Below are positions 2,395-19,236 of a DNA stretch of 33,957 nt, in pieces (positions within the stretch are counted from its first letter, which is position 1; each line of letters opens with the position of its first letter). A model generated the notes under the pieces. The model saw only the letters and a list, made by a program, of their open reading frames with translations. It did not search any database and was not told the origin of the DNA. The translations under genes and the position numbers were made by a program. This stretch comes from Verrucomicrobiota bacterium (GTDB taxonomy: Bacteria > Verrucomicrobiota > Verrucomicrobiia > Chthoniobacterales > JAFAMB01): the NCBI GenBank assembly GCA_019247695.1, contig JAFBAP010000160.1, positions 1 to 33,957 on the forward strand, written 5' to 3'.

Positions 2395-3000
2395 TTAAAG
2401 GATATAAAGAATCGTGAAGAGGAAGATCCACACGATGTCGACGAAATGCCAGTACAGGCTGCTGCAGTCGAGGAACGCATGGCGCTCCGGGCTGATCAGG
2501 CCAAGCATGGTCCGAGCCAAGGCAGCGAGCAGCAGCAACGCGCCGATGAACACGTGCAGGCCGTGAAAACCGGTCAACACAAAGAAGCTGGAACCCATGA
2601 TCCCGGCCGTGTTGAACCAGAAACCTTCGTGGTAAAGGGAATACCACTCGTGAGCCTGGTTGGCCAGGAAGCAACCGCCCAGGACCAGGGTCAGCAGGAG
2701 AAGCAACCGGCCGCCGCGCTGCCCGCGCAAGATCCGCACCTCGCTGAAGTGCAGGGTGAAACTGCTGCTGAGCAGCATCAGGGTCGCAACGGACGTCTGG
2801 GCCATCGTGGTCGGGTTTTTAAGCGCTTCCGGCATTTGCCAGCCTGGGCCTGCGCCGGAGCGAAGCACGATGTACCCGCCGATGAGGCCTGCGAACAGCA
2901 TCGCTTCGGAGGCCAGGAACGTGAGCATCCCGAATCGGACCAGATTCGGCGGTTGCTGGGGCAACTGATCAGCGGTGAGGGCGACGGCGGAGGCTTGCAT
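2395..3000 (-). CDS. ctaE: Cytochrome c oxidase subunit III
   Basis: This 201-residue integral membrane subunit of the heme-copper oxidase has about five membrane segments, the short form of subunit III that lacks the first two helices. Typical features are the N-terminal segment with FLASEAMLFAGL, the HEWYSLYHEG region, GFHGLHVFIG and a C-terminal WHFVDIVWIFLFTILYI. Subunit III has no redox cofactor and stabilises subunit I. It follows the 38-residue peptide gene by three bases and ends the ctaCDAB-ctaE series. REP-like copy B follows the stop codon. Confidence 0.93.
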   Translation of the reverse strand: MQASAVALTADQLPQQPPNLVRFGMLTFLASEAMLFAGLIGGYIVLRSGAGPGWQMPEALKNPTTMAQTSVATLMLLSSSFTLHFSEVRILRGQRGGRLLLLLTLVLGGCFLANQAHEWYSLYHEGFWFNTAGIMGSSFFVLTGFHGLHVFIGALLLLAALARTMLGLISPERHAFLDCSSLYWHFVDIVWIFLFTILYIL

Positions 3001-3003
3001 AGT

Positions 3004-3120
3004 CTAAGCAGGTTGGTAGATGGACAACTTCCAGAGGATCACGGCAAGGGCGAGGGCCAGGGCAAACAGGATCATCGCGGTAAGGAACCAAAGGTTCTTT
3101 TTACGCAGCCCATCCTTCAT
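3004..3120 (-). CDS. 38-residue single-span membrane peptide in oxidase operon
   Basis: This tiny open frame begins MKDGLRKKNLWFL, has one hydrophobic span (about 11-30) and ends KLSIYQPA. The ATG at 3120 overlaps the ctaB TGA in an ATGA (3117-3120), and its stop lies three bases before the ctaE start. It therefore sits in a fully coupled operon slot with no spare DNA. Basic residues before the span predict N-in topology. Size and location recall the small oxidase assembly peptides found between ctaB and subunit III in other bacteria, but sequence similarity is too short to claim homology. The frame itself is convincing; the function is inferred. Confidence 0.7.
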   Translation of the reverse strand: MKDGLRKKNLWFLTAMILFALALALAVILWKLSIYQPA

Positions 3121-4034
3121 GAAAACCGGGTAACGACGAGCGCGCCCAGCGTGATCGGCAGGTACACGATGGAAGCGATGAAAAGCTTGCGCGCAGCCCG
3201 TTCGGTCCCCGTCACGGCAAAACGCAAAGCCATGCAGAAAAAGTAAACACCGGTGGCGAGCGCAACCGGAAGGTACCAGAACGTGGTGAGCCGGAGCGCG
3301 GCCGGAATCAAGCTGACCGAGACCAACCCCATGGTGTAGAGCAACGCCTGCCGGCCGGTCAGACGGCAGTCGGGGTCTTGCCCGCTCAGCATGATGAAAC
3401 CCGCTGACCGGTATTGTTCCCGGTAAAGCCAGGAGATCGCCAGGAAATGCGGCATCTGCCAGAGAAAAAGGATCGCAAACAGGATCCAGCTCTCAAAGCT
3501 GGCTTCACCCCGGACGGCCGTCCAGCCGATTACCGGCGGTAAAGCGCCCGGAATGGCCCCGACGATGGTGTTCAGGGTGGTAACCCGTTTAAGGGGGGTG
3601 TAAGCGAAAAGGTAAGTGGCAACCGTCACGGCCGTGAAGAGCCCCGTCAGCACGTTGGTGGCCAGGCTCGTGTAGATGATGCCGGCGGCGGAGCAGATCA
3701 CCCCGATCATGAGTCCTTCATCGAGGTTCATCCGCCGGGCGGGCAACGGCCGGTTCCGGGTGCGATTCATGCGCGCATCCAGTTCAACCTCGAACACCTG
3801 GTTGAGAGCGGCGGCCCCGGCGGCGGCGAGGGCGGTGCCGCACAGGACGTGGAAAAGGTAAAGGTAATTCATCTCGCCATGCCAGGCCAGGAGGAATCCC
3901 ATGAGCGTCGTGACCAGGACCAGCAGGGTCAGGCGCGCTTTCACCAACTCGCCGAGGTCCGCCACGAACCTGCGCACCGACGCGCGCGCGGTCACCGGCG
4001 TAACCGGAGAATGTTTTTCGCTGATGAAGCTCAT
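3117..4034 (-). CDS. ctaB: Protoheme IX farnesyltransferase (heme O synthase)
   Basis: This UbiA-family polytopic enzyme farnesylates heme B to give heme O, the precursor of heme A. The first Asp-rich motif lies in NQVFEVELDARMNRTRNRPL, and the second region in the REQYRSAGFIML stretch. The 305-residue length is usual. I chose ATG 4034 because it overlaps the ctaA TGA in an ATGA. A longer upstream frame exists but reads antisense-like composition through ctaA. The gene is translationally coupled to ctaA upstream and to the 38-residue peptide downstream. Confidence 0.93.
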   Translation of the reverse strand: MSFISEKHSPVTPVTARASVRRFVADLGELVKARLTLLVLVTTLMGFLLAWHGEMNYLYLFHVLCGTALAAAGAAALNQVFEVELDARMNRTRNRPLPARRMNLDEGLMIGVICSAAGIIYTSLATNVLTGLFTAVTVATYLFAYTPLKRVTTLNTIVGAIPGALPPVIGWTAVRGEASFESWILFAILFLWQMPHFLAISWLYREQYRSAGFIMLSGQDPDCRLTGRQALLYTMGLVSVSLIPAALRLTTFWYLPVALATGVYFFCMALRFAVTGTERAARKLFIASIVYLPITLGALVVTRFS

Positions 4035-5068
4035 GCGCGAGCCGCCTCCATTCGGGTTGAGGGATCCGAGCCGGCGACGTTTGCGCATGCGACAAACTTG
4101 CACAACGTCACCGAGAAAAGCACGCCGTTCATGAGGGTCAACGCGCCGAACAGCACGTGGGAAGTCGCGATGTCGGCCGCCTTGTTGGACCAGATGGTCC
4201 AGGCGCCGAGCGCAAACTGGACGGCGACCAGCAACATCCAGATCAAGGCAAACCTCTTCAAAATGCGTGGAAAGTTCGCCTGGCGCATTGCAGCACTCCC
4301 GATCGACACGATCCCGATCACCAACGCCACCGCCCACACTCGGTGCACGTAATGGAGGAGGATCAGCCCAACCGAGGTGGGCAGCTCGGCCTGGGCCGCG
4401 CGCGTCTGGTTGATGGTGTCGATCGCAGTTGCTGTGACCGGCGGCAGAACCCCGCCGTACACCGTCGGGAAATCGTGAACCGCCAAGCCGCTGTGCGAGT
4501 GGCGCATGGCCGCGCCGAGCACCAACTGGATAAAGACCATCGCGGTAACCACGAGCGTCCAGCGCCTGAATATCAGGAGCCCGGGCTCGGCTGCATGCCG
4601 GGCAAATGCCCGCCAGAAGCGGGAGGTCACCAGGGCGATGACGGCCACGAGCGCAAAGAAGCTTTGCGCCAGGCAGCCGTGGAACAGCCCAAGCACCGCG
4701 TTGTGCTCCGTGACGCGCAGCCCGCCAAGTACCCCTTGGACGATCACCGCCAGGACGGCGACACCCGCGAGGGTTTTGACCCAGCGCCGATCTTCCACCG
4801 CGAAAGCTAATCCGCAGAGAACGAGGGTTAACATGCCCACCCCGCTCGCGATCAGGCGATGGGTGTGTTCAAAGAAAACGCCCCCGATCCAGCGGGAGAC
4901 CGGAAACAGGAACATGTTGTACCCGAAGCTGTTCGGCCAATCGGGCACGGCCATGCCGGCCTCATGGCTGGTCACCAGGCCGCCGCTGCAGATCAAGACG
5001 AGGATTGCCGCGGCAAGAAAGCTTGCGAACCAGTGCAAGAGTCTCCGGGGCAATCCAAACTCGTTCAT
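4031..5068 (-). CDS. ctaA: Heme A synthase (COX15/CtaA)
   Basis: This 345-residue membrane enzyme oxidises the C8 methyl of heme O to a formyl group, giving heme A. It shows the paired histidines expected on both halves of the internal duplication: EHTHRLIASG, LFHGCLAQ, HYVHRVWA and TSHVLFGALT. It also has the conserved HEAGMAVPDWPNSFG segment. The start is ATG 5068, 18 bases after the ctaD stop, and the stop overlaps the ctaB start. Its presence confirms that the CtaCDE oxidase carries heme A. Confidence 0.93.
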   Translation of the reverse strand: MNEFGLPRRLLHWFASFLAAAILVLICSGGLVTSHEAGMAVPDWPNSFGYNMFLFPVSRWIGGVFFEHTHRLIASGVGMLTLVLCGLAFAVEDRRWVKTLAGVAVLAVIVQGVLGGLRVTEHNAVLGLFHGCLAQSFFALVAVIALVTSRFWRAFARHAAEPGLLIFRRWTLVVTAMVFIQLVLGAAMRHSHSGLAVHDFPTVYGGVLPPVTATAIDTINQTRAAQAELPTSVGLILLHYVHRVWAVALVIGIVSIGSAAMRQANFPRILKRFALIWMLLVAVQFALGAWTIWSNKAADIATSHVLFGALTLMNGVLFSVTLCKFVACANVAGSDPSTRMEAARA

Positions 5069-5086: not shown

Positions 5087-6859
5087 TCAATGGGGCATTA
5101 ACCGGGCCGTTTCCGGCACGGGCTGGTTCTGGGGCAGGAAATCCTCCTCCATGCCCGGTACACTATATTCGTATGGACCGTGGTACACCGTCGGAGTCAC
5201 CTCAAAATTGCCGTGGCCGGGAGGAGACGGCACCGTCCACTCCAGCGTCGTGGAATTCCAGGGATTCCGCGGGGCTTTCGGTCCTTTGAACATGCTGTAG
5301 AAGAAGTTGATGAAGAACGGGATGGTCGACAAGCCGAGCCCGAACGCACTCAGGGTGATCAGGACGTTAATGGGCTGTTGGCTGCGCAGGTGATCGTACT
5401 GGGTGGGATCGGCGATCCGCCGCATCATCCCGTTGAGACCCAGGTTGTGCATCGGAAAGAAGGTGAGGTTAAAGAACGTGAGCGTGAGGAAAAAGTGGAC
5501 CTTGCCCCAGAACTCGTTCGTCATACGCCCGAACATCTTCGGGAACCAAAAATAAATCGCGCCAAAGATCGCAAAAATGCTGCCGCCGAACAGGACGTAG
5601 TGGATGTGGGCCACCACAAAGTACGTGTGGTGAATGAACAGATCGACCGGGGTCGACGCCATGAAAATCCCGCTCAGGCCGCCGATCACGAACATCGAAA
5701 CGAAACCCAGCGCGAAGCACATCGGCGTCGTGAACCGGACGGACCCGCGCCAGACCGTGCCGAGCCAGTTGAACGTTTTGATGGCCGAAGGCACCGCGAT
5801 CACCATCGTCGAGAAGGAGAAAACCGCCGACAGCATCAGGTTCATGCCGCTGACGAACATGTGGTGGCCCCAGACGATAAAGCCCAGGACGCCGATGGCG
5901 ACCATGGCGAAGACCATCGCCTTGTAGCCGAAAATCGGTTTGCGCGAGAAAACCGGCAGGATTTCCGAGGTCAACCCCATGGCCGGCAGAATGAGGATGT
6001 AAACCTCCGGGTGACCGAAGAACCAGAAGAGGTGCTGCCAGAGCAGGGGCTGGCCGTAGTTGGAAGCCGAGAAGAAGCTGGTCCCGAAGTTCAGATCAAA
6101 GAAGAGCATGGCGGCCGCGGCGGACAACACCGGCACGGCCAGGAGCAATAAAAACGCGGTGACGAGCAGCGCCCAGACGGCCAGCGGCAAGCGGAACATC
6201 TTCATACCGGGGGCGCGCATGTTGATGACCGTGGTGATGTAGTTCATCGCACCGGCAATGGAGGCCAGACCGTTGACGAAAAGACCGACGCACCAGAGAC
6301 TCTGGCCGGCCTGCGTGCCGTTGTAGGAACCGTGCGCCGAGAGCGGCGCGTACGAGGTCCAGCCGGAGGCCGGAAAACCGTTTGGCGCAAAGAAGCTCGA
6401 CAGGAGGATGAAACCTGAGAGCAGGAACAGCCAGAACGACAGCGCGTTGAAGAACGGAAACGCCATATCCGGCGCCCCGATCTTAAGCGGAATCAGGAAA
6501 TTGCCGAACACCCCGACGAGGAACGGCATCACGACCAGGAAGACCATGACCGTGGCGTGCATGGTAAACAGCGCGTTGTACCCGCCGGGCTGGATCGCGC
6601 CGTTGTCCGTGATCAACCATCGAGGCAGCAGTTTTCCGATGACCGGCACAGGGGTGCCGGGAAAGGCGAGCTGATAGCGCACCCCGAGGGCAAGCAGGCC
6701 GCCGATGATCAGAAAAAAGAGGCAGGCAAAAAGGTATTGCAAGGCAATCGTCTTGTGGTCCTCCGACCAGATGTACTTGCGAAAAAAACTGAGTTCGTGG
6801 TGGTGCTGCGCGGTTTCGCCGTGCACCTCGGTAACGGAATGAGCGAGGGTCTGGGCCAT
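5087..6859 (-). CDS. ctaD: Cytochrome c oxidase subunit I
   Basis: This 590-residue catalytic subunit is a proton-pumping A1-type heme-copper oxidase. All ligands are visible: His101 (low-spin heme a), His283 with cross-linked Tyr287 in GHPEVY, His332-His333 (CuB), His418 (heme a3) and His420 (heme a). Glu285 of GHPEV and Asp131 in IGAPDMAFP mark the D-type proton channel. The N-terminus carries a His-rich stretch (about 13-21). It follows ctaC by 14 bases. This intact subunit contrasts sharply with the ligand-less CcoN-like protein encoded a few kilobases upstream. Confidence 0.97.
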   Translation of the reverse strand: MAQTLAHSVTEVHGETAQHHHELSFFRKYIWSEDHKTIALQYLFACLFFLIIGGLLALGVRYQLAFPGTPVPVIGKLLPRWLITDNGAIQPGGYNALFTMHATVMVFLVVMPFLVGVFGNFLIPLKIGAPDMAFPFFNALSFWLFLLSGFILLSSFFAPNGFPASGWTSYAPLSAHGSYNGTQAGQSLWCVGLFVNGLASIAGAMNYITTVINMRAPGMKMFRLPLAVWALLVTAFLLLLAVPVLSAAAAMLFFDLNFGTSFFSASNYGQPLLWQHLFWFFGHPEVYILILPAMGLTSEILPVFSRKPIFGYKAMVFAMVAIGVLGFIVWGHHMFVSGMNLMLSAVFSFSTMVIAVPSAIKTFNWLGTVWRGSVRFTTPMCFALGFVSMFVIGGLSGIFMASTPVDLFIHHTYFVVAHIHYVLFGGSIFAIFGAIYFWFPKMFGRMTNEFWGKVHFFLTLTFFNLTFFPMHNLGLNGMMRRIADPTQYDHLRSQQPINVLITLSAFGLGLSTIPFFINFFYSMFKGPKAPRNPWNSTTLEWTVPSPPGHGNFEVTPTVYHGPYEYSVPGMEEDFLPQNQPVPETARLMPH

Positions 6860-6873
6860 AGGGACTGCGACGA

Positions 6874-7746
6874 TTATGGGTTTCGGACGTACGCCCGGTC
6901 AGACGAGTTCGAGAGAGCGACTGCGGCCGTTTTTTCCTTGTACCATTTGTCGAACTCCTCCTGAGACACAACCTGGATTTGCGCTTTCATGTTGTAATGG
7001 CCGGAGCCGCAGAGCTGGTTACACGCCAACTGAAAGGATCCAAGCTTCGTGGGCACAAACCACACCCAGTCGATGGTGCGCCCGGGCACCGCGTCCTGAT
7101 AGATCCGGAATTCCGGAACGTAAAAGGCGTGGATGACGTCTTTTGAGTTCAGGCGGATCCGGACCGGCTTGTCCACAGGCAATTCAAGGTTCGGGGACGT
7201 GAAGTTATCTTTGGAATCGGGATCGTCTTTGTCGTTGCCGAAAAGATTATCGTTCGACAGCAGCTTGACGTCGGTGCGCCCGAGTTTTTTGTCTGCGCCC
7301 GGGTACTGGAAGCTGAACGCAAACTGGTATGCCGTTATTGCGACCTCGAGCGTGTCGGCGGGTGGCTCCGCGTGAATGACGTCCCACCAAAGGTGGTTTC
7401 CGTAACCCCAGAGCGAGATAAAAATGGCGGTCGGGATCACCGTCCAGATGAACTCGAGCCGGTTATTCCCGTGACTGTAAGTTGCCTTCACCCCTTTGCG
7501 GGCGCGGTACTTGATTAGGAAATAGACGTACACGATCTGCGTCAGGATAAAAACGGCAGCCGTGAGGTAGAAGATGGCGTAGAGGAGCTGGTCGATCTTT
7601 TCTCCGGACCGGCTGGCCACGTCCGGCAGCCACCAGAGATCGCTGGTCCGCGGGGCAGCTGAAGCAGTGCCCGTCATGGCCAGGGCCAATGCCACTGCGG
7701 CTACGAACAGCAGGCCGCGTTTAAACCTGAAAAAAAGGGGTTTCAT
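6874..7746 (-). CDS. ctaC: Cytochrome c oxidase subunit II
   Basis: This 290-residue subunit receives electrons from cytochrome c at the periplasmic CuA centre. It has a signal peptide (about 1-30), two membrane helices (about 52-80 and 96-118) and a cupredoxin domain. CuA ligands are His206, Cys242, Cys246, His250 and Met253; the motif reads CNQLCGSGHYNM, with Gln244 where most oxidases have Glu. No cytochrome c domain is fused, so the donor must be a separate cytochrome, plausibly one encoded just upstream. It begins a new transcription block after REP-like copy C. Confidence 0.95.
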   Translation of the reverse strand: MKPLFFRFKRGLLFVAAVALALAMTGTASAAPRTSDLWWLPDVASRSGEKIDQLLYAIFYLTAAVFILTQIVYVYFLIKYRARKGVKATYSHGNNRLEFIWTVIPTAIFISLWGYGNHLWWDVIHAEPPADTLEVAITAYQFAFSFQYPGADKKLGRTDVKLLSNDNLFGNDKDDPDSKDNFTSPNLELPVDKPVRIRLNSKDVIHAFYVPEFRIYQDAVPGRTIDWVWFVPTKLGSFQLACNQLCGSGHYNMKAQIQVVSQEEFDKWYKEKTAAVALSNSSDRAYVRNP

Positions 7747-7987: not shown

Positions 7988-8704
7988 TTACTTCGTCTGA
8001 GCGGCAGGCGCATTGGCCGGGGCCGCAGGTTTGGCCGCCGGCGCCGCGGCATTTTTGGCGACGTCCTGGGCCGGCATTTTCTGCAGTTCAGCCATGGTCC
8101 ATTGTTCCTTGCGATCCTTAACCTGCTCGCGCACCTGCTTCACGGCTTCGGGCGGAATCGGCGGCGCAGTGTTGCCCCAGTCGGAGCGAACGTAGGTGAG
8201 AATGGCGGCGAACTGCTGGTCCGTGTACTGGGCTTCCCACGCCTGCATGGCGTTGTTGTAGGCCTGGCCTTTGACCTGCACGGGGCCCTGCAACCCTTTC
8301 AGCACAATCGCGATCAACCGGTTGGTGGCATCGCTGTTCACCCACTCCGAACCCGCCAGCGGCGGGAACTGGCCGGCCACCCCCTGGCCGTTGGCCTGGT
8401 GGCAGGTGATGCAATTCGCCGAAAACAGTTTGCGCCCGACCTCCTTCGGATCCGGCGGGACGGCCGGACCGCTCGCGGCGGCCCCGTACTTCGGCTTGAA
8501 GTCAAACACGCTGCTGTCAAAGCCGCCGCTGTAAGTGAAAAGGTATGCACCCGTCCAGAAGACGGCGACGGCGAGAACGCCCAGGAACCAGGCCGGCACC
8601 GGCGCGCTGCCGGCATCCAGCGGCGACCTGCCGGGCGCCGCTTCCGGGCTATGCCCGGGCTCCGGGCCGTAAGGACGATTCGGTTCAGAAGATTCGAGGC
8701 TCAT
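7988..8704 (-). CDS. Membrane-anchored monoheme cytochrome c, CcoP-like
   Basis: The 238 residues comprise a hydrophilic N-terminus, one membrane span (about 38-58) ending LFTYSGG, a cytochrome c domain with CITCH (98-102) and axial Met153 (YNNAMQAW), and a 30-residue Ala/Pro-rich tail. The anchor plus class I cytochrome layout and the PLAGSEWV segment resemble CcoP of cbb3 oxidases, which normally has two hemes; here there is one. The start overlaps the CcoO-like stop in an ATGA (8701-8704), so the two are translated together. It probably accepts or relays electrons near the CtaCDE oxidase. Confidence 0.85.
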   Translation of the reverse strand: MSLESSEPNRPYGPEPGHSPEAAPGRSPLDAGSAPVPAWFLGVLAVAVFWTGAYLFTYSGGFDSSVFDFKPKYGAAASGPAVPPDPKEVGRKLFSANCITCHQANGQGVAGQFPPLAGSEWVNSDATNRLIAIVLKGLQGPVQVKGQAYNNAMQAWEAQYTDQQFAAILTYVRSDWGNTAPPIPPEAVKQVREQVKDRKEQWTMAELQKMPAQDVAKNAAAPAAKPAAPANAPAAQTK

Positions 8705-9324
8705 TCCTTTGGTTCCGGGACTTCCGGCAGCGGGTAGGTTCGGTTGAGCGCACGAAGGTAGCCGACCAGTTCCCGGGCGTCGTTATTCGGAACGACTTCC
8801 CAACCGGGCGGCGGCGCGTCTTCACCGGCCAACTGCAAGGCATCCGCAGAAGGCTGGCCGGCAATTTTCCGGGTGGTAAACAACCAGCGGTAAGCCGGCA
8901 TCCCTGACCCCGGATTCACGGTGGCCGGGCTGTATAACAGCTTATAGTACCAGGCCGCATCCTTTTGGCGGGCGCCCACGTTCGTCAGGTCCGGCCCGAG
9001 CCGGCTGCTGCCGAGAAAAACGTCCCCGTCATTCATGTAGTCGCGGGCCACCGTCCGGCGTGCCCCCCACTTCCGGTCGATGTCGGATCCTTCATTCTTG
9101 TCCCGAACGTATTGAGAATGGCAGTCGACGCAGCCATTGGCCGCGTAGACCCGGAAGCCCTGGACCGCAGTGCCGGGCAACCCGGGCGGGATGACTTCGT
9201 TGGTGGTCGCATCGCGGTCGGGCCGCAACTCCGCAAAAGCCATGTACGGGTAATAAACCATCCCGAGCCAGCCAAGGAGGAAAAAGCCTAAAACTCCGAG
9301 GAAATAAGGTGTGAAGCGTTTCAA
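8701..9324 (-). CDS. CcoO-like monoheme cytochrome c
   Basis: This 207-residue protein has an N-terminal membrane anchor (about 7-30) and one heme c site CVDCH (65-69) in the CcoO-type context CHSQYVR. It has SRLGPDLTNVGAR (107-119) and an axial Met142 in GMPAYRW. These match cytochrome-containing subunit II of cbb3 oxidases. The start is a TTG at 9324 overlapping the CcoN-like stop (TTGA), with GGAGG about 10 bases upstream and no usable Met until residue 22. The heme site looks intact although its presumed partner subunit I has lost its cofactors. The gene symbol ccoO is withheld because the complex is not a canonical cbb3 oxidase. Confidence 0.85.
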   Translation of the reverse strand: MKRFTPYFLGVLGFFLLGWLGMVYYPYMAFAELRPDRDATTNEVIPPGLPGTAVQGFRVYAANGCVDCHSQYVRDKNEGSDIDRKWGARRTVARDYMNDGDVFLGSSRLGPDLTNVGARQKDAAWYYKLLYSPATVNPGSGMPAYRWLFTTRKIAGQPSADALQLAGEDAPPPGWEVVPNNDARELVGYLRALNRTYPLPEVPEPKE

Positions 9325-10775
9325 GCGACCGAGACCTCCGCGGGGGTTTCAACTGGGGCAACCGGTTCCGCCGCAGCGCGCACCCGTTCCAAACACCGGA
9401 AGCAAAGGACGAGGAACAGCGAAAATCCGAAGAGCAGGTAGGAAAAGAAGAGCATTCCGACGGCGATGACCTGGACCAGCAGGAACGGCCGGATGATGTC
9501 AACGACGGCGCTGAACTCGATCTTGGCATCGGCCAGGCCGAAACCCTGGACCAAGCCCCCGACGGCCTGATCAAGCGCCAGCATTCCCACCCCGGCGGCA
9601 GCCAGCCAGAATTGAAGCCTGAGCAGGCCGGGCAGCAACCAGCGTCGCCCAAGCAACTCCGGCACGGCGTAGTAAACCGCGCCCATGAGGGTAAAGGTTA
9701 CAAATCCGGCCAGCAGCAACGACCAGCGCGCGGCCATGCCCAGGGTGAAATGAAAGATGTAATCGACCGTGCGGAACGAAATGAACGCCGACCAGAACGT
9801 GGCGGCGACAAACAGGAAAAAGCCGGTCATGGCGAAACGCAGCGGCAGGTTCGCACCCGCGAAGTCGTACCGGCCGTCGAGCGTGCGATGGAAATTCGCG
9901 AACAGGGCGAGTACCGGGAGGATCAGCAGGACGTTGGCAACGATGGTCACGGTTTGCATCCAGGCCGGGAACGGGCCGCCCAGGAACAGGCCGAGCCCTG
10001 CCCACACGGCCAGGGCGCCGTAGCCCCAAAAGCCGATCCGGGCCAGGGGCAAACTGGCGACGGGCCGCTGAACCCCTTCGGGAATCAGGACGTACGCAGC
10101 GCCAAGCGCGAGCGGCACCAGCCAGAGTTGGTAAAGGCCGTTCACGTACCAGGACTGAATGGCGGGCTGCACGGGCCCGCCCGTGTGCCAGTAATTGACG
10201 ATGGCTTGGCCCGTGGTGAAAACCCAGACGAAACAGAGCAGCGCCGCCACCAGGTACCAGAGCGGGATGACCCGCAACTGGTTGCGGTACGCCCAGAACT
10301 CAACCAGGAGCCAGGTGACGATGAGCACCGCGGCGAGAAAGAACCCGAACGAAATGGACGGGTTGATCTCCAGCAACTCCCGGCCGGTGCTGCCACCACC
10401 GAGGACGTGCCAGAGTCCGAGCGCCAACGACAGGTTCCAGATGATCCCGGCGATAAAAATCAACAGACCGGCGCGCCAGGACAGGCGGCAAAGCCGGCTG
10501 ACGAAGTAAAGCGCGACGCCGAGTCCGGTCAGGGACGCCCAACCAAACACAAAAGCGTTGGTAAACGCCGGATAGACCCGCCCGTAGGTAAGCCACGGCA
10601 CACCGGCAAAAGCGTACCAGGCATTCGGCGCGAACGCCTGGGCGGTGTTCAACCACCAGAACAAAGAGGAAACGATGAGCCAGGCCGCTCCGGAGAGGAG
10701 GTAAAAGGCGATAATGCTCCGGCCCAGGCGGTGGGCGCGGTCTATGATCAATGGGACAGCGGTATGATCAGCCAT
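9321..10775 (-). CDS. CcoN-like membrane protein lacking heme/copper ligands
   Basis: This 484-residue polytopic protein is collinear with cbb3 oxidase subunit I. GRVYPAFTNA (65-74) matches the GRLRPLHTNA region, WAG (258-260) matches the CuB helix, and IFHFTLG followed by GAVYYAVP (365-372) matches the heme-ligand helix and beyond. In my alignment all six cofactor histidines are replaced: Phe71, Asn212, Gly262-Leu263, Arg350 and Ser352. Its only histidines are 4, 15, 123, 197, 296 and 342, and none form HH or HxH. It should not bind heme b, heme b3 or CuB. The start has a perfect AGGAGG eight bases upstream. It may serve as a scaffold for the two adjacent cytochromes c; that role is inferred. 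Confidence 0.85.
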   Translation of the reverse strand: MADHTAVPLIIDRAHRLGRSIIAFYLLSGAAWLIVSSLFWWLNTAQAFAPNAWYAFAGVPWLTYGRVYPAFTNAFVFGWASLTGLGVALYFVSRLCRLSWRAGLLIFIAGIIWNLSLALGLWHVLGGGSTGRELLEINPSISFGFFLAAVLIVTWLLVEFWAYRNQLRVIPLWYLVAALLCFVWVFTTGQAIVNYWHTGGPVQPAIQSWYVNGLYQLWLVPLALGAAYVLIPEGVQRPVASLPLARIGFWGYGALAVWAGLGLFLGGPFPAWMQTVTIVANVLLILPVLALFANFHRTLDGRYDFAGANLPLRFAMTGFFLFVAATFWSAFISFRTVDYIFHFTLGMAARWSLLLAGFVTFTLMGAVYYAVPELLGRRWLLPGLLRLQFWLAAAGVGMLALDQAVGGLVQGFGLADAKIEFSAVVDIIRPFLLVQVIAVGMLFFSYLLFGFSLFLVLCFRCLERVRAAAEPVAPVETPAEVSVA

Positions 10776-10844: not shown

Positions 10845-11429
10845 CTATTTCGGCGGAGGGGTGGAAGCGGGGGTTCCGGCGGGTGAAGCGTCTCCGGCCG
10901 GCGGGGCCGGGTTTGATTGCGGGGCCGGGGTCGGCTGTGAAGGCGGAGCGGATGCCGGAGCGGGGACCGACTGCGGGTTAACGACGGGAGCCGGAGGCGC
11001 AGCGGCGGCCGGGGCCGGGCTGGCCGGCGGCAGGCCGGCGGCCGGGGATGGCGACGCCGAGGGGTTAGCGGTCGGCGCCGGGGCGTTGTTCGTGGCCGGG
11101 GCGGGCGCCGGCGGGTTGATCAGCCCGGCCGGATGCGGTTTGTTCGCCTCCAGGTCGGCGATGATCAGCTGTTTGGCGCGCTCGATCGGGACCCCGACGA
11201 CGCCTTTCTGCCGGTCGATCCAATGGTAATGGTTCAGCACCTTATCGTTGTCGGCGTAAAGGTCGGCAAGATTCTTGAGCCGGGTCTGGCGCCGTTCTTC
11301 ATCGAAGGTCGGGATCGCCTGCCGTTGCCAGGCGCTGAACCGGGCCAGGCCCAGAAACAGGAGCACGATCACCAACCCCGCGATCACCAATGGCAGTGAA
11401 CCCTTGCCGTTCCGATAACTTTTGGCCAT
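10845..11429 (-). CDS. Single-span membrane protein with Pro/Ala-rich tail, ACIII-linked
   Basis: Of 194 residues, one membrane helix spans about 11-30. A compact conserved-looking region follows (about 44-95), including HYHWIDRQKGVVGVPIERA. A low-complexity Pro/Ala/Ser tail covers about 105-194. I recall similar YxWxD-x-x-KG-x-V-x-(I/V)-PI-x-RA segments in small proteins near oxidase clusters of Verrucomicrobiota and Planctomycetota but cannot name the family. It starts 10 bases after actF and precedes the CcoN-like gene by 69 bases. The tail probably extends into the periplasm and may tether cytochromes or neighbouring complexes; this is inference. Confidence 0.65.
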   Translation of the reverse strand: MAKSYRNGKGSLPLVIAGLVIVLLFLGLARFSAWQRQAIPTFDEERRQTRLKNLADLYADNDKVLNHYHWIDRQKGVVGVPIERAKQLIIADLEANKPHPAGLINPPAPAPATNNAPAPTANPSASPSPAAGLPPASPAPAAAAPPAPVVNPQSVPAPASAPPSQPTPAPQSNPAPPAGDASPAGTPASTPPPK

Positions 11430-11439
11430 AGGACGAGAA

Positions 11440-12672
11440 TCAGTTGCTCAGGTTTACCGACTCCAGCAGCCGCGGGTCGCGCGCCGGGAACAGCGGCACG
11501 TCGCCGATGGTGCGCAGGAAGAGAAACGCCAGCGGGCACCCGATCGCAAAAAGGCAAAGCAGATCGAGGATGTTTATCTGGAACCCGGCCGGGTGAAGAA
11601 ACGGCAGAACCGTGATGTAGGTATCCAGCACGTGCATCGCCAGGATCCAGAAGCAGATAAAGCCCAGGAACTTCGGATTACGCTTCGTGAATTGAAACAG
11701 CAGGTAAAGAAACGGAATAAAAAACCGGCCCACCACCATGAAGGTGCTCAGCACGTTCCAGGACTCAACGTTGCGCCGGAGAAACCATTGCGTTTCCTCC
11801 GGGATATTGCCGTACCAGATGAGCATGTACTGGCTGAAGCCGATGTAGCCCCAGAAAATTGAGAACGTCAGGAGCAGCTTACCCATGATGTGGTAATGCT
11901 CCTCGTTGACGGCCCTGAGGTAACCGGCATTTTTGAGGGCGATCACGACCAGGATGATGAGGGCCATGCCTGCCCCGGCGGCGCCCGCAAAGATGTAGAC
12001 GCCCCACATGGTCGACGCCCAGTGGTAGTCGAGCGACGCCACCCAATCAAATGAGAACGCGGTGAGGCTCGCGGCGAAAAGGAGCAGGCACACGAAAGAG
12101 GTGCCCCGCATCTGGATCGACCAGCGCGGGTCGCCGTCGCCGTCCTGGCGGAGCGAGGTCCGGCGGAAATAAAAGGCCGCCAGACCGAAGTAGAGGAAGT
12201 AGAAGATCGCCCGCAGCCAGAAGAACGGGACCACCAAAGGGCCGAGGCGAAATTCGAAATACGGCAGCTTGGCCGCAAGAGCCGGGTCAACGTGGGCCTG
12301 GTCTTTGACCGTGATCCAGGCCCAGATGTCTTTGCGAAACAGGAAGAGGGGGATAAAGAAGAGCACCATCCAAGGCAGAAGCACCGCCAGGTTCTCCATC
12401 TGTCTCCTGACCAGGATACCCCAGCCGGAATCGGTCGCGTGGTGCACCAGGATCCAGAAGTAGCAGCCGACCAGGATGGTAAAGAAGTAGACGAAGGCGA
12501 ACAGCCAGGAATAGGCCAGTTGCCTGCGCAACCCACTCCCTGCCGGGGCGATCACGCCCACCGCCAGGGTAATCAGGAGCGAAAGGACGCCGATCCCCAG
12601 CAAAATCAAGAGGATCCGGCTGAGATTCTTGACGTCAAAACGCTCCGGTTTCGGGACAGAATGCAGACTCAT
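11440..12672 (-). CDS. actF: Alternative complex III subunit ActF (quinol:cytochrome c oxidoreductase)
   Basis: This 410-residue NrfD/PsrC-like membrane subunit of ACIII has about ten membrane helices. In this family ActC and ActF are related membrane subunits, one or both bearing the quinol site. Typical segments include FSFDWVASLDYHW, STMWGVYIFAGAAGAGMA, FSQYMLIWYGNIPEET and the C-terminal HVLDTYITVLP. The ATG at 12672 overlaps the actE TGA (ATGA). It is the last subunit of a complete actABCDEF set in the usual order. Confidence 0.93.
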   Translation of the reverse strand: MSLHSVPKPERFDVKNLSRILLILLGIGVLSLLITLAVGVIAPAGSGLRRQLAYSWLFAFVYFFTILVGCYFWILVHHATDSGWGILVRRQMENLAVLLPWMVLFFIPLFLFRKDIWAWITVKDQAHVDPALAAKLPYFEFRLGPLVVPFFWLRAIFYFLYFGLAAFYFRRTSLRQDGDGDPRWSIQMRGTSFVCLLLFAASLTAFSFDWVASLDYHWASTMWGVYIFAGAAGAGMALIILVVIALKNAGYLRAVNEEHYHIMGKLLLTFSIFWGYIGFSQYMLIWYGNIPEETQWFLRRNVESWNVLSTFMVVGRFFIPFLYLLFQFTKRNPKFLGFICFWILAMHVLDTYITVLPFLHPAGFQINILDLLCLFAIGCPLAFLFLRTIGDVPLFPARDPRLLESVNLSN

Positions 12673-13358
12673 GGATGGCTGGCCTCCAGTGCCTGGCGTT
12701 GATCCTCAGGCACATCCGACAGTTTGGCGTACTGGCTCTTCTGCAGGGCTCGAATGTAGGCCACGACGGCCCACCGATCCTTGACCGTGACCTTGTCGCC
12801 GTACGGCATCATCGAGTTATAGCCGTTGGTGATGGTGTTGAAGATCTGGCCATCCGCCATCTCGCGGTACTTATCCTGATGGTAGTTGGCAATCCCGAGC
12901 AGACCGTATTTGGAAGTGACCCCGTTCCCCTGCCCGGTTGCGCCGTGGCAGGCGGAACAGTAGATGGTGTAGACTTTCTGGCCGCGATCGATCAATTCCG
13001 GCGTCGCGGGCATCGGGATCCCCGTGCCCCAGTTGGCGCGCATTTTTCCGGTGTTGTAATAATCGGTGCCGGCCGTGAATTCACCCAGGGGCGAGCGGAT
13101 ATCGCTGGGCGTCTCCGAATTCTGAAACGGGTGCCCCGGGATGTCGTATCCCATCGGGATCGTCCCGTCCACCGGGGGGCGGGCGCCGCGGCCGTCGGCG
13201 AAAAAGTCGGAGGGCCGTTGGAATTTGATCTTCGATTGCCGCTTCATGTCGCTGAAGAACTCGATCGGCGGCGCGCTGTGACGTTCCCCCTGGAATCCGA
13301 GTACGGCGATCGCCACGATGCAGAGCAATCCAGTGACGATCAGGAAATTCTTAATCAT
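12669..13358 (-). CDS. actE: Alternative complex III monoheme cytochrome c subunit ActE
   Basis: This 229-residue cytochrome c has an N-terminal anchor (about 3-22), the ActE-typical stretch RPSDFFADGRGARPPVDG (48-65), a heme c site CSACH (134-138) and a likely axial Met in SMMPYGD (182-188). ActE passes electrons out of ACIII to the oxidase or a soluble cytochrome. The start overlaps the end of actD by eight bases and the stop overlaps actF. Confidence 0.93.
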   Translation of the reverse strand: MIKNFLIVTGLLCIVAIAVLGFQGERHSAPPIEFFSDMKRQSKIKFQRPSDFFADGRGARPPVDGTIPMGYDIPGHPFQNSETPSDIRSPLGEFTAGTDYYNTGKMRANWGTGIPMPATPELIDRGQKVYTIYCSACHGATGQGNGVTSKYGLLGIANYHQDKYREMADGQIFNTITNGYNSMMPYGDKVTVKDRWAVVAYIRALQKSQYAKLSDVPEDQRQALEASHP

Positions 13359-13907
13359 TGGCGTAGATTACCTTCACCTCTTTGCTGCCGAGCCCTTGGA
13401 GGAGGTCGCGGGTCCCGGACTCCGAATATTTCGGGTCGCCCGACTCGATCACCAGGAAGAAAGCATCATTCGTGACCCGCCGGAAGGGCAGGTAATCGAA
13501 CAGCGGGTGGTGGAGGCGCGGCAACCGGTTCAGGACGAACACGCCGAAAAACGCGGTGAACGCCGAGAACAGGATCGTCAGCTCGAACATGATCGGGAAA
13601 AATGCGGGCACCGTGAAAAAGTCGACCGGTTTGCCGTGCACGATGAGCGGGTAGAGGAACGATGAGGGGATAAATTCCAGGCTGGCCGCGGTGAGAAAAC
13701 CGGTCAGGCCGCCGCAGAAAATGATGTACCCGAGCGGGCTTTTGCCGAGGCCCATGGCCTTGTTCATGCCGTGGATCGGAAAGGGCGAGTGAACGTCCCA
13801 GAAGCGGTAGCCTGCGTCACGGACTCCTTCGGCGGCATGGTAAAGCTCGGCAGCCGAACCGAATTCGGCGACGACGGCGAAGGATGGGCGGCGGGCGGCG
13901 GCGGCGG

Positions 13908-13911
<4 letters not shown>
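13351..13911 (-). CDS. actD: Alternative complex III subunit ActD (DUF3341)
   Basis: This 186-residue membrane protein of the DUF3341 family is the ActD subunit of ACIII. It has a soluble N-terminal part with the characteristic [20 protein letters not shown] (about 31-50) and two membrane helices (about 57-82 and 100-128). A C-terminal [15 protein letters not shown] segment follows. It carries no cofactor and links the membrane subunits. ATG 13911 overlaps the actC stop (ATGA), and its end overlaps actE by eight bases. Confidence 0.92.
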
Positions 13912-15342
<1,431 letters not shown>

Positions 15343-15350
<8 letters not shown>

Positions 15351-18300
15351 GATACGTTTCCTCCGGTGATTGGAGCCGGGCGGCCGGCCCCGGCTCGTTA
15401 CCTGCCTTTTCGCCGCCGTCGCGCTCGTGCTCGACGTTGATTTTTCCGATCTTTTGGGCGCCGGGCATTTTGGGATTGGGATTGCGCAGCCGGGCGAGGT
15501 AGCTCGTGCGCGTTTCAACGTTCAGGTACTTCAGAAGATGATAGTTCTGCGGCAGGGCACGCACCTTGGAGACGTGGCTCTGCGGATCCTTCAGGTCCCC
15601 GAAGACGATGGCCTCCGTCGGGCAAACCTGCTGGCAGGCAGTCCTCACCGAGTCGGTCGGCAGGGTGAGGTCGCCGGTCACCCCGGCCTTCACGCGCTGC
15701 TGGATTTTTGCCGTCTCGATGCGCTGCACGCAATAGGTGCACTTCTCCATCACCCCGCGCATCCGGACCGTCACGTTCGGATTTTTCTGGAGCTTGGAGA
15801 TTTCGTCCATGCCCCAGTGGGCGAGCGGCCCGAGGTAGAGCTGCTGTTTGCCCTGGAAGCCGGGGAGCCCGTGCTCGATGCGGTCGAGCACCGGCCGGTC
15901 GTTGTAGTTGAAGAAGTTAAAGCGCCGCACCTTGAACGGGCAGTTGTTGGAGCAATATCGGGTGCCGATGCAGCGGTTGTAAACCATTACGTTCAGCCCC
16001 TCTTCACTGTGGACGGTCGCGTTGACCGGGCAGACGGTCTCACACGGCGCGTTCTCGCAGTGCTGGCACATCATCGGCTCCATGACCATCTCCGGTTCTT
16101 CCTCCAGGCGCGGGTTGGCCAGATCGCCGTCCGCACTGGCGAAGTAGCGATCGATGCGCATCCAATGCATCTCGCGGGTCCGGTCGCACTGGTCCTTGCC
16201 GACGATCGGGATGTTGTTTTCCGCCTGGCAGGCGATCACGCAGGCCGAACATCCCGTACAGGTATTGAGGTCGACCACCATGGCCCATTGGTTGGGCGCA
16301 TTCAGCGGCGGGTGCGAGTACAGCGAGAGGTTAGGCCGAATCTCCGCGTCATCCCCGATCCGCTGCGCAAAATCCGGCGTCTTGGCGTAATCGTCGACGG
16401 TGCCCTCCCGCACCAGGTTGCGGCCTTCCATGCTGTGGTGCATCTGAGTTTGCACCAGGTGGTAACCGCCTTTCTGGACCAGCCGGACCGTGGCTCCCGT
16501 CGCCACGTACGGCGCCGCGGCCGTGCGGAGTTCGTACGCATTGAAACCGGTCCCCCGCCCTACCTTACCCACCGCAGGGCGGCCGTAGCCGAGCGGCAGC
16601 GTGATCGAGTAATCGGCGTGGCCGGGTGCGATCAGCACCGCGACCTGCAGGCGGCGGTCGCCGACCGTAATTTCGACCATGTCGCCATCGGCGACGTTGA
16701 GCGCGCGCGCGGTCGCTTTGGAGAGCAGCGCGGCATTATCCCAGGTCAGTTTGGTGATGGGATCCGGCATCTCCTGCATCCAGGCGTTGTTGGTGTACCG
16801 GCCGTCATCAACTTTGTAGTCAGCCGGAAAGACTACCTCCAGGGCGCTCGGGTTCGCCGGGGCCGGCAGCGGCGCGACGGTCTTGAGCAGGTTCGGGAGC
16901 CCGTTCGGGTTAAATTCCTGCCCCGCCGGGGTGTAGCCCGTGCCGCGGGCGTAGCCTTCACGCAGCAAGCGGGTCCAGGCCGCTTCAAAATCGTCGTCTT
17001 TGACAAACGCCTTGAAGGTCTCGCGCACCGCCTCCAATCCGCCCGGCACCCCGAGCAGTCTGGAAAGCACATCGATCTGCGAGAGGCCCCCGAAAAGCGG
17101 CAGGATCATCGGTTGCACCGGCAGGTAGGTTCCGTCGGTGGCCCGCTGGTCGCCCCAGGCTTCCAGAAAATGCGCTTCCGGCACGTGCCATTTGGCGCCG
17201 GGCGACGTTTCGTCGACGTAATAACCGAGCCGGACGACTTCCGGTACGGCCTTTTGAATTTCCGGCCACCGCAAGTCGGCCGGGGCGGTGTAACCGGGGT
17301 TGCCGGCCAGAATGAACAGCCGTTTCACCGCGCCCGCCTTGATGCCGGCGGCCAGCTCCTCGAGGCTCGCCGTTTTTACGCGCGGCGCAGCGGCCAAACT
17401 GAGGGTCGAGCCGAGCGCCCGGAGCGCATTGTTCATCGCGAGCACCACGCCATGCACCCACGCAGGGTAACGCGAGCCGAGTAAAACCAGGCTGCGCCCC
17501 ATGCGGCCGACCAGATCGTTAGCGCATTCCGTGACCCACTTCGGATCGAACTGGCTCCCGTTATCGCGGACCTGTCCTACCAAGGCGCTCAGGACCCGGT
17601 CATTGGTAGCAGCGGCGACCTGCCTGGCCAGGGCAACGGCAAACCCGGGAATCTGGGACGCGGCGCAGCGCAACCGGTGATCAGCCATTCCGCCGGTAAG
17701 ACTGTAGCGATTTTCGACGACGTAGAGGCGGTTCATGCCCCGGGCCGAGCCGTGCGCCCGGCGGCGCCCCGCGAATTCGCAGGCCTGTTCGACGCGCTGC
17801 TCCAACCCGAGGAAATCCGCGTCGAGGGCGACCACCACGTCGGCGTTCGAAAACATCGGGCGCGCCAGCACGTCCGGACCAAAAAGCGCTTCGGTGGCGG
17901 CATGGACCTCCCGGTGCCCGAGCGGATCGCCGGAATAAAAGGCGATCTGCGGGTACTGCCGTTTCAGGTCATCCAGGAGCCGGTCCCGGGCCGGCGCGTA
18001 TTGCTCATCGATCAACAGGGCAAGACCGGCGCCGCCGTTCGCCTTCAACTCCTGCTGGACGCCCTTCAGGTATTCATCGAACGCCTGAGGCGGAACTTCT
18101 TTCCCGTCCTGCAGGAACGTCTGGGCACGATCCGGATCGTAGAGCTGCAGGATCGAAGCCTGGGTCAGCGCGTCGGTTCCACCGTTGCTGAACGGCACCA
18201 CGGGATTGCCCTCGAGCTTGGTCGGGCGCCCTTCGTAAGTCGTGGCGATCAACGGGGTCCCGCCGAGGCGCCCCGGGATTGACGTGCTGTAAAGCACGGC

Positions 18301-18582
18301 CCGGCCCGGGATCAACCATTCGACGCTTTTGGTGTAAGGGACGAGGTAGGTCTGGGGCCGGCGGCAGCCGCTCAGCCCGACGCCGGCCAGCGCCAGCGAC
18401 GCACCCATCAGACGGAGAAAATTGCGCCGGGAAACGCCGTCGGCTTCGAACTCAGCCGCACCGTCGGGGAACTCGCGTTGAAGCCATTGGCGGAACTCGG
18501 GGGTGTCCGCGTATTCCTCGACGCTGCGCCAGTAGCGGCGCCCGGTCGACTTGGCCGGGGGATGATGAAAAATTCGTTTCAT
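15343..18582 (-). CDS. actB: Alternative complex III subunit ActB (molybdopterin-like plus Fe-S domain)
   Basis: This 1079-residue periplasmic subunit has a twin-arginine signal [17 protein letters not shown] (51-67), so it is exported folded. The N-terminal two thirds resemble molybdopterin oxidoreductases, a fold that in ACIII lacks the Mo cofactor. The C-terminal third is ferredoxin-like, with cysteine groups near residues 773 ([11 protein letters not shown]), 837 ([14 protein letters not shown]), 869 ([12 protein letters not shown]), 947 (CTYC) and 985 (CQQVCP). These fit three to four Fe-S clusters and carry electrons from the quinol site to ActA/ActE. It begins directly after the actA stop and overlaps actC. 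Confidence 0.95.
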
Positions 18583-19236
18583 TTAACGGTGACAACCTGC
18601 GCAGTTCTGGGGCGGATTGATGTTCCATTGCTCCTTGAGCTGGGAACCGATCTGGAGCTGGGTCTGGCCCGCGTCCGGATTCCAGTCGAGGTTAAACACC
18701 TGGCCGACCGGCCGGAGGCGGCCTTCCGGATGGCGGTGGCAATCCAGGCACCACCCCATGCTCAGCGGTTCGTGCTGGTACACCACGTCCATGTGATTCA
18801 CCTGCCCATGACAGCTGACGCAGCTCACCCCACGGTTCACGTGTACGGCGTGGTTGAAATAAGCGAAATCCGGCACCTGGTGGATCCACACCCAGTTCAG
18901 CGGCTTGCCGGTCGCCCAGCTTTCGCGCACGGCCGCGAGCTTCGGGTTGTTTGCCTGCACCTGCTGGTGGCAGTTCATGCAGGTCTGGGTAGTCGGGAGA
19001 TTGGAGTGCGGCGACACCTCGACGTACGAGTGGCAGTACCGGCAGTCCAGCCCCAACTGCGTCACATGGATGTCATGCGAGAAAGGAACCGGCTGCACCG
19101 GTTGGTAGCCCTTCCGCATGTAGTCCGGGGTTAAGTAGTACCAATAAGCTGCCGATGCGACCCCCCCGAGCACCAGGAGGCAAAACACGATTTTCAGCGG
19201 CAGATAATTCGTCCAGCGGGGAAAAAAATTAGCCAT
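18583..19236 (-). CDS. actA: Alternative complex III pentaheme cytochrome c subunit ActA
   Basis: This 217-residue protein has an N-terminal membrane anchor (about 14-33) and five CxxCH heme c sites: CRYCH (65-69), CMNCH (86-90), CVSCH (139-143), CLDCH (163-167) and CAGCH (212-216). Several extra His residues can serve as distal ligands. It is the first gene of the ACIII operon. ATG 19236 has GAGG four bases upstream, and the stop abuts the actB start with no gap. Confidence 0.94.
   Translation of the reverse strand: MANFFPRWTNYLPLKIVFCLLVLGGVASAAYWYYLTPDYMRKGYQPVQPVPFSHDIHVTQLGLDCRYCHSYVEVSPHSNLPTTQTCMNCHQQVQANNPKLAAVRESWATGKPLNWVWIHQVPDFAYFNHAVHVNRGVSCVSCHGQVNHMDVVYQHEPLSMGWCLDCHRHPEGRLRPVGQVFNLDWNPDAGQTQLQIGSQLKEQWNINPPQNCAGCHR

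Follow-up and report, generated by a model that had tools for sequence, protein, structure and literature searches.

The main finding of this study is that a gene lodged in an ACIII operon of Verrucomicrobiota, which we call ccoN', encodes a protein that aligns with subunit I of cbb3-type oxidases and is, as read from its sequence, a COX1 fold minus all six CcoN heme and copper ligands. The gene is under purifying selection, has relatives across the phylum and, in the interpretation developed below, probably encodes a scaffold for the neighbouring cytochromes, not an enzyme. Subunit I of heme-copper oxidases is regarded as the part that performs the catalysis of aerobic respiration, and a homologue of it is taken for a functional oxidase. 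A large and conserved branch of the family that persists without ligands is a natural test of what this fold can be used for without its chemistry.

The ccoN' gene and its operon

The window—the whole stretch of 33,957 nucleotides that was analysed—carries the following genes, given in the order in which they occur on the minus strand.

18583..19236, minus strand: actA, multiheme cytochrome c (five CxxCH in the orthologues read; gene order)
15343..18582, minus strand: actB, molybdopterin/FeS-type ACIII subunit (sequence and conserved order)
13908..15518, minus strand: actC, NrfD-like membrane subunit whose true start probably lies within the ORF (Pfam NrfD, 4.1e-17)
13351..13911, minus strand: actD (Pfam ActD, 9.4e-57)
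12669..13358, minus strand: actE, ACIII monoheme cytochrome c, CSACH (CxxCH in the sequence, conserved order)
11440..12672, minus strand: actF, ACIII membrane subunit (gene order and resemblance to relatives' ACIII clusters)
10845..11429, minus strand: small conserved membrane protein encoded between actF and ccoN' (position conserved in most ACIII clusters read)
9321..10775, minus strand: ccoN', predicted ligand-free CcoN-like subunit with a COX1 fold, 484 aa (Pfam COX1, ligand sites, 4-bp overlap with ccoO')
8701..9324, minus strand: ccoO', FixO/CcoO-like monoheme cytochrome c, CVDCH, with a TTG start inside the overlap with the ccoN' stop (Pfam FixO, 9.5e-20)
7988..8704, minus strand: ccoP', monoheme cytochrome c with a membrane anchor and the motif CITCH (Pfam Cytochrom_C, 7.9e-16; NCBIfam ccoP, 4.5e-9, under the cutoff)
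6874..7746, minus strand: coxB, subunit II of the aa3 oxidase, carrying the CuA motif CNQLCGSGH (NCBIfam CoxB, 164.8 bits, above the cutoff)
5087..6859, minus strand: coxA, A-type oxidase subunit I with intact ligand motifs MHA, GHPEV, GHH and HIH (Pfam COX1, 8.9e-154)
4031..5068, minus strand: ctaA-like heme A synthase (sequence and conserved order)
3117..4040, minus strand: ctaB-like heme O synthase; its start is approximate, and the ORF as listed opens at 4337 (sequence and conserved order)
2395..3000, minus strand: coxC-like oxidase subunit III (sequence and conserved order)

Pfam matches confirm ActD, ActC (as NrfD), FixO, cytochrome c, COX2 and COX1 as members of the operon, and the rest are assigned by sequence and conserved order. 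The overlaps of ccoN' with ccoO' (4 bp, TTGA) and of ccoO' with ccoP' (4 bp, ATGA) suggest that the three genes are translationally coupled. CcoO' and CcoP' score below the NCBIfam ccoO and ccoP cutoffs, and CxxCH is present in both. CoxB contains the Pfam domains COX2 and COX2_TM and a weak cupredoxin match only, with no fused cytochrome c domain. Because the operon encodes a complete CoxA and a CuA-bearing CoxB, O2 reduction has a place there without CcoN'. The genome has two more A-type CoxA genes besides the one in the operon and a single copy of ccoN'. The small protein upstream of ccoN' has a hydrophobic stretch and the motif HWIDRQKGVVGVPIERA at its N-terminal end and a tail rich in Pro and Ala, and a Pfam scan of it returned no family.

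The claim that prompted this work, made from the DNA without database searches, was that of an intact frame with a perfect ribosome site encoding a protein CcoN-like along its length. The open reading frame lies on the minus strand, which that claim had left unstated, begins with ATG, has no internal stops and is preceded by a full AGGAGG 8 nt ahead of the start (5' flank ...AACTCAGGAGGTTCCATCCATGGCT). The protein matches Pfam COX1 over residues 21–438 (E=1.5e-34) and NCBIfam ccoN (TIGR00780) over residues 21–455, with 86.7 bits that lie far under the 583-bit cutoff, and its closest solved relative is CcoN of 3MK7 (phmmer, E=4e-21). The COX1/CcoN fold is assigned from Pfam, phmmer and hhalign (Prob 100); an AlphaFold model made from two sequences only has a pLDDT of 43.5, too low for use.

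We take H60 and H347 of 3MK7 to be the low-spin heme b ligands, H345 that of heme b3, and H207, H257 and H258 those of CuB, as established from the cbb3 structure. At the corresponding positions CcoN' has F71 and S352 (heme b), R350 (heme b3), and N212, G262 and L263 (CuB), just as the sequence-only reading had listed them, and the active-site Tyr251 is A256. Phmmer, the 171-row MAFFT family alignment and an HMM-HMM alignment place the same residues at the ligand sites in an identical register, the alignment to CcoN being ungapped from about N212 to S352 in all three, and the hhalign comparison of 72 ligand-poor proteins with canonical CcoN gives Prob 100 and E=1e-59. None of the six histidines of CcoN' (H4, H15, H123, H197, H296 and H342) lies at a ligand position, and its sequence holds no HH or HxH pair, also as claimed. 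An alignment slip masking the ligands is ruled out, since three methods give one register for a protein without HH or HxH, and so is local mutation or sequencing error, since the ligand set is also missing from an 83%-identical relative and from every member of the GTDB family.

Relatives, ligand counts and selection

Relatives of CcoN' are found in 182 of the 213 genomes of the order (E<=1e-10), in 93 of 141 genomes sampled at class level and in 40 of 145 sampled at phylum level, some of the weaker genome matches being canonical fused CcoNO. The family alignment comprises 170 proteins, from which 8 canonical fused CcoNO were set apart and 162 non-fused proteins counted. The ligand counts of the latter are bimodal: all six histidines are kept in 45 and five are scored in two (one of them a partial sequence), while 115 have three or fewer (three in 1, two in 24, one in 49 and none in 41). 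Every member of the window's own GTDB family (L002–L010) is ligand-poor, and the residues that replace the ligands differ between ligand-poor clades (F/A/G/S/Q). The sequence-only reading had named orthologues retaining ligands as a refuting result that would imply local mutation only. Such orthologues exist, namely the 45 that keep all six ligands, most of them in the ACIII slot; they do not imply local mutation because 115 relatives have zero to three ligands and the best tree places losses in several lineages. As a separate observation, nearly all non-fused copies with full ligands have replaced the Glu of canonical CcoN (3MK7 E323) by Gln or a different residue, so that even they may differ from textbook cbb3 enzymes.

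One ligand-poor clade of 19 sequences (family code f8, L011 type: L011, L015, L017, L052, L056–L059, L061, L063–L067, L069, L090, L093, L108 and L109) keeps exactly the H60/H347 pair, has a conserved Tyr in place of the heme b3 ligand and has lost the CuB ligands, which makes it a possible heme-b-only intermediate stage. This clade speaks for an alternative in which CcoN' still holds heme via relocated or unusual ligands (Tyr, Met or another His) and acts as a b-type electron relay, and ligand relocation is possible in pseudoenzymes. However, the window protein has lost both H60 and H347, has none of its own histidines at a ligand site and belongs to a family in which the replacements vary from clade to clade. 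An HH pair at 3MK7 positions 290–291, seen in some relatives, was considered as a new, relocated cofactor site and ruled out, being ancestral and present in full-ligand copies too. We regard a heme relay as unlikely.

The slot actABCDEF–small protein–ccoN'–ccoO'–ccoP' is common to the window and its relatives across Verrucomicrobiota. Of the ligand-poor copies, 61 have 900 bp or more of sequence upstream, and ACIII genes lie there in every one; 72 have 380 bp or more downstream, and ccoO' follows in each. In the widely read ligand-poor loci every CcoO' has a CxxCH and every CcoP' has one or two. This conserved ACIII context agrees with the sequence-only reading. The ACIII slot is also flagged for 32 of 38 full-ligand copies, four of the 32 by cytochrome c matches only, and stand-alone full-ligand ccoNOP sets occur at L043, L154, L155, L189 and L194. 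One genome (G144) carries both an ACIII-linked ligand-poor copy and a separate stand-alone full-ligand ccoNOP, which indicates that the ACIII slot can work without an active site. Several ligand-poor loci have no cox genes after ccoP' (L039, L046, L047, L156 and L159–L165), and aa3 genes also lie downstream of some full-ligand copies (L044, L192 and L193). An adjacent downstream aa3 oxidase was dropped as a predictor of ligand loss, both states occurring with and without it. The search of one 95% complete genome, G248, whose locus L161 holds an ACIII cluster with a ligand-poor ccoN', returned no CoxA match. At another locus (L171), an ACIII cluster holding a ligand-poor ccoN' has as its divergent neighbour a canonical fused ccoNO that keeps every ligand.

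Away from the active site, G65, R66, W113, W209, P270 and W272 are each at least 93% conserved in ligand-poor copies, and the residues equivalent to R55 and E125 of CcoN (R66 and E136 in the window) are kept in most of them. The retention of these two polar residues in a long multi-helix protein under purifying selection could suggest an active non-redox transporter—an ion path coupled to ACIII, for example, that keeps part of the C-family proton channel. This is improbable in our view: Tyr251 of the C-family active site has gone along with the ligands, and polar conservation equally fits plain structural constraint.

The dN/dS of ligand-poor ccoN' ranges from 0.07 to 0.24 over eleven pairs. 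For the window gene and its 83%-identical relative it is 0.23, against 0.05–0.12 for actDEF, ccoO' (0.07) and ccoP' in the same pair, so that ccoN' changes faster than its partner genes yet is clearly constrained. This faster change, together with ligand-poor branches that are longer (roughly 0.3–2 changes per column) than most full-ligand ACIII-group branches (0.2–0.5), is what could be expected of a relaxed, decaying remnant that persists by position only. Such a remnant is nevertheless very unlikely, given a dN/dS well under 1 in every pair, reading frames intact in nearly all matches (a stop occurs in one weak class-level match, G255), the conservation described above, the spread of relatives through most genomes of the order and across the phylum, and a ccoO' that is missing from no testable ligand-poor locus. 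The earlier view that the gene is no decaying pseudogene stands.

Evolutionary history and the pmoA-bearing genomes

Trees were built after removing the ligand columns. At their base the full-ligand proteins form a paraphyletic group, and the number of switches between full and lost states is at least two in a quick tree of 102 rows and at least five in a careful tree of 53 rows. We read these switches as losses because a regain of six His and a Tyr is implausible, and ligand loss probably happened more than once. Forcing all ligand-poor rows into one clade costs 58.9 log-likelihood units with an AU p of 0.056, and a single origin is not rejected at 5%. One genus (code g7) holds both states, with L025 and L080 full and L104 ligand-poor. 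The existence of a series from full through heme-b-only to empty, with full and lost states in one genus, means that the step-by-step loss of an active site in respiration can be put directly to the test.

The loss also bears on published accounts of methanotrophs. Two papers (PMC8498564, PMC6688271) describe a cbb3-type oxidase adjacent to ACIII in Opitutaceae and verrucomicrobial methanotrophs, both ascribing the co-located enzyme to the methanotrophs; the high O2 affinity of the methanotrophs has been tied to this oxidase (PMC6688271), and their three oxidase types are given again in PMC10205796. All ten genomes of family code f20 (2.2–2.5 Mb each) have pmoA-type genes (PF02461), and we therefore take them to be verrucomicrobial methanotrophs. 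In the five f20 loci that were widely read, act genes are followed by ccoN', ccoO', ccoP' and an A-type coxA. The six aligned f20 copies of CcoN' read SESSHFV or ADAAHQT at the sites of H60, H207, Y251, H257, H258, H345 and H347, and no gene in the ten genomes scores above the CcoN cutoff. The pmoA-bearing genomes examined share the operon slot of the reported oxidase and carry the CcoN' family there; however, that oxidase has been described as a working high-affinity enzyme, unlike the six copies read here, which lack the ligand set. As read in the f20 genomes, the reported "cbb3 oxidase next to ACIII" of methanotrophs would, on these residues, have no catalytic subunit but only a ligand-poor CcoN' (L149–L153, in G225, G264, G257, G241 and G274) that lacks the known means of binding heme or copper. 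Physiological accounts built on a cbb3 enzyme beside ACIII in methanotrophs need checking.

A proposed role for CcoN' in the ACIII chain

Taken as a whole, the observations are best explained, and likely so, by a non-catalytic, ACIII-linked CcoN' scaffold that would hold the c-hemes of CcoO' and CcoP' between ACIII and an oxidase, aa3 in the window. The sequences show that the fold and operon position have been kept, that the ligands of low-spin heme b, heme b3 and CuB have been lost, that purifying selection acts and that the c-heme motifs of CcoO' and CcoP' have been retained; from these we infer a physical complex, as suggested by gene order and gene overlap, an electron path and the absence of heme and copper from CcoN'. 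The protein would derive from subunit I of a C-family (cbb3-like) oxidase whose gene became part of the verrucomicrobial ACIII cluster. It would now be a multi-helix membrane anchor, free of heme b and copper, which joins CcoO' and CcoP' in one assembly and docks both on ACIII. In the window operon, electrons would pass from menaquinol to the ACIII hemes, then to the c-hemes of CcoO' and CcoP', the CuA of CoxB and finally the aa3 CoxA; where the cox genes lie elsewhere, they would go to another oxidase. The CcoN'O'P' module would thereby supply the cytochrome c link that ActE or the cytochrome c domain of caa3 provides in other ACIII chains. Once aa3 had taken over O2 chemistry, the CcoN active site would have become dispensable and been lost, probably more than once, with the scaffold retained. 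This hand-over is not universal in gene order, because several ligand-poor loci have no cox genes after ccoP', and the presence of aa3 alone does not predict loss, because it also follows some full-ligand copies.

The sequence-only reading had envisaged "a scaffold or wire". The scaffold half agrees with the role we propose, whereas a wire role for CcoN' itself is unlikely because a protein without hemes has no redox centre, and the retained c-hemes of CcoO' and CcoP' would be the wire. CcoN' might instead help to assemble or stabilise CcoO'/CcoP' or aa3 without being a lasting member of the complex. This would fit a gene placed between act and cox genes that overlaps ccoO' by 4 bp, and cofactor loss would cost such a role nothing. 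However, the fold, length and operon order of CcoN' match those of a structural CcoN, to which CcoO and CcoP are permanently bound in cbb3 structures, and we see hardly any chance of such a factor. The scaffold reading can be extended to a broader proposal, to which we give even odds: throughout much of the phylum, a cofactor-free heme-copper-oxidase fold would be a permanent structural subunit of an ACIII–cytochrome c–oxidase respiratory supercomplex. It would have evolved several times from an active cbb3-like oxidase bound to ACIII, and one clade would still show a heme-b-only intermediate. We found no ligand-less CcoN or ACIII-linked pseudo-oxidase in the open-access papers searched; an earlier mention in subscription papers is possible.

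Comparison with known systems highlights similarities and differences. CcoN' resembles the CcoN of cbb3-type oxidase (3MK7) in sharing the COX1 fold along some 400 residues, with most ligand helices aligned without gaps, and in being followed by CcoO- and CcoP-like cytochromes. Unlike CcoN, it has all six heme/Cu ligands and the active-site Tyr replaced, scores 86.7 bits against a cutoff of 583 and is encoded inside an ACIII operon. As in the ACIII-aa3/caa3 chains of the Flavobacterium johnsoniae and Rhodothermus marinus type, an A-type oxidase directly follows the act genes, and electrons pass from ACIII through cytochrome c domains to CuA, a path that is proposed for the window. The main differences are the extra CcoN'O'P' module between ACIII and the oxidase and a CoxB without a fused cytochrome c. 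A further parallel lies within ACIII itself, in the NrfD-like ActC and ActF (PMC8076601), which are redox-cofactor-free membrane subunits bearing peripheral electron-transfer subunits, as we propose for CcoN', although the two are unrelated in fold and origin, CcoN' coming from the heme-copper oxidase superfamily.
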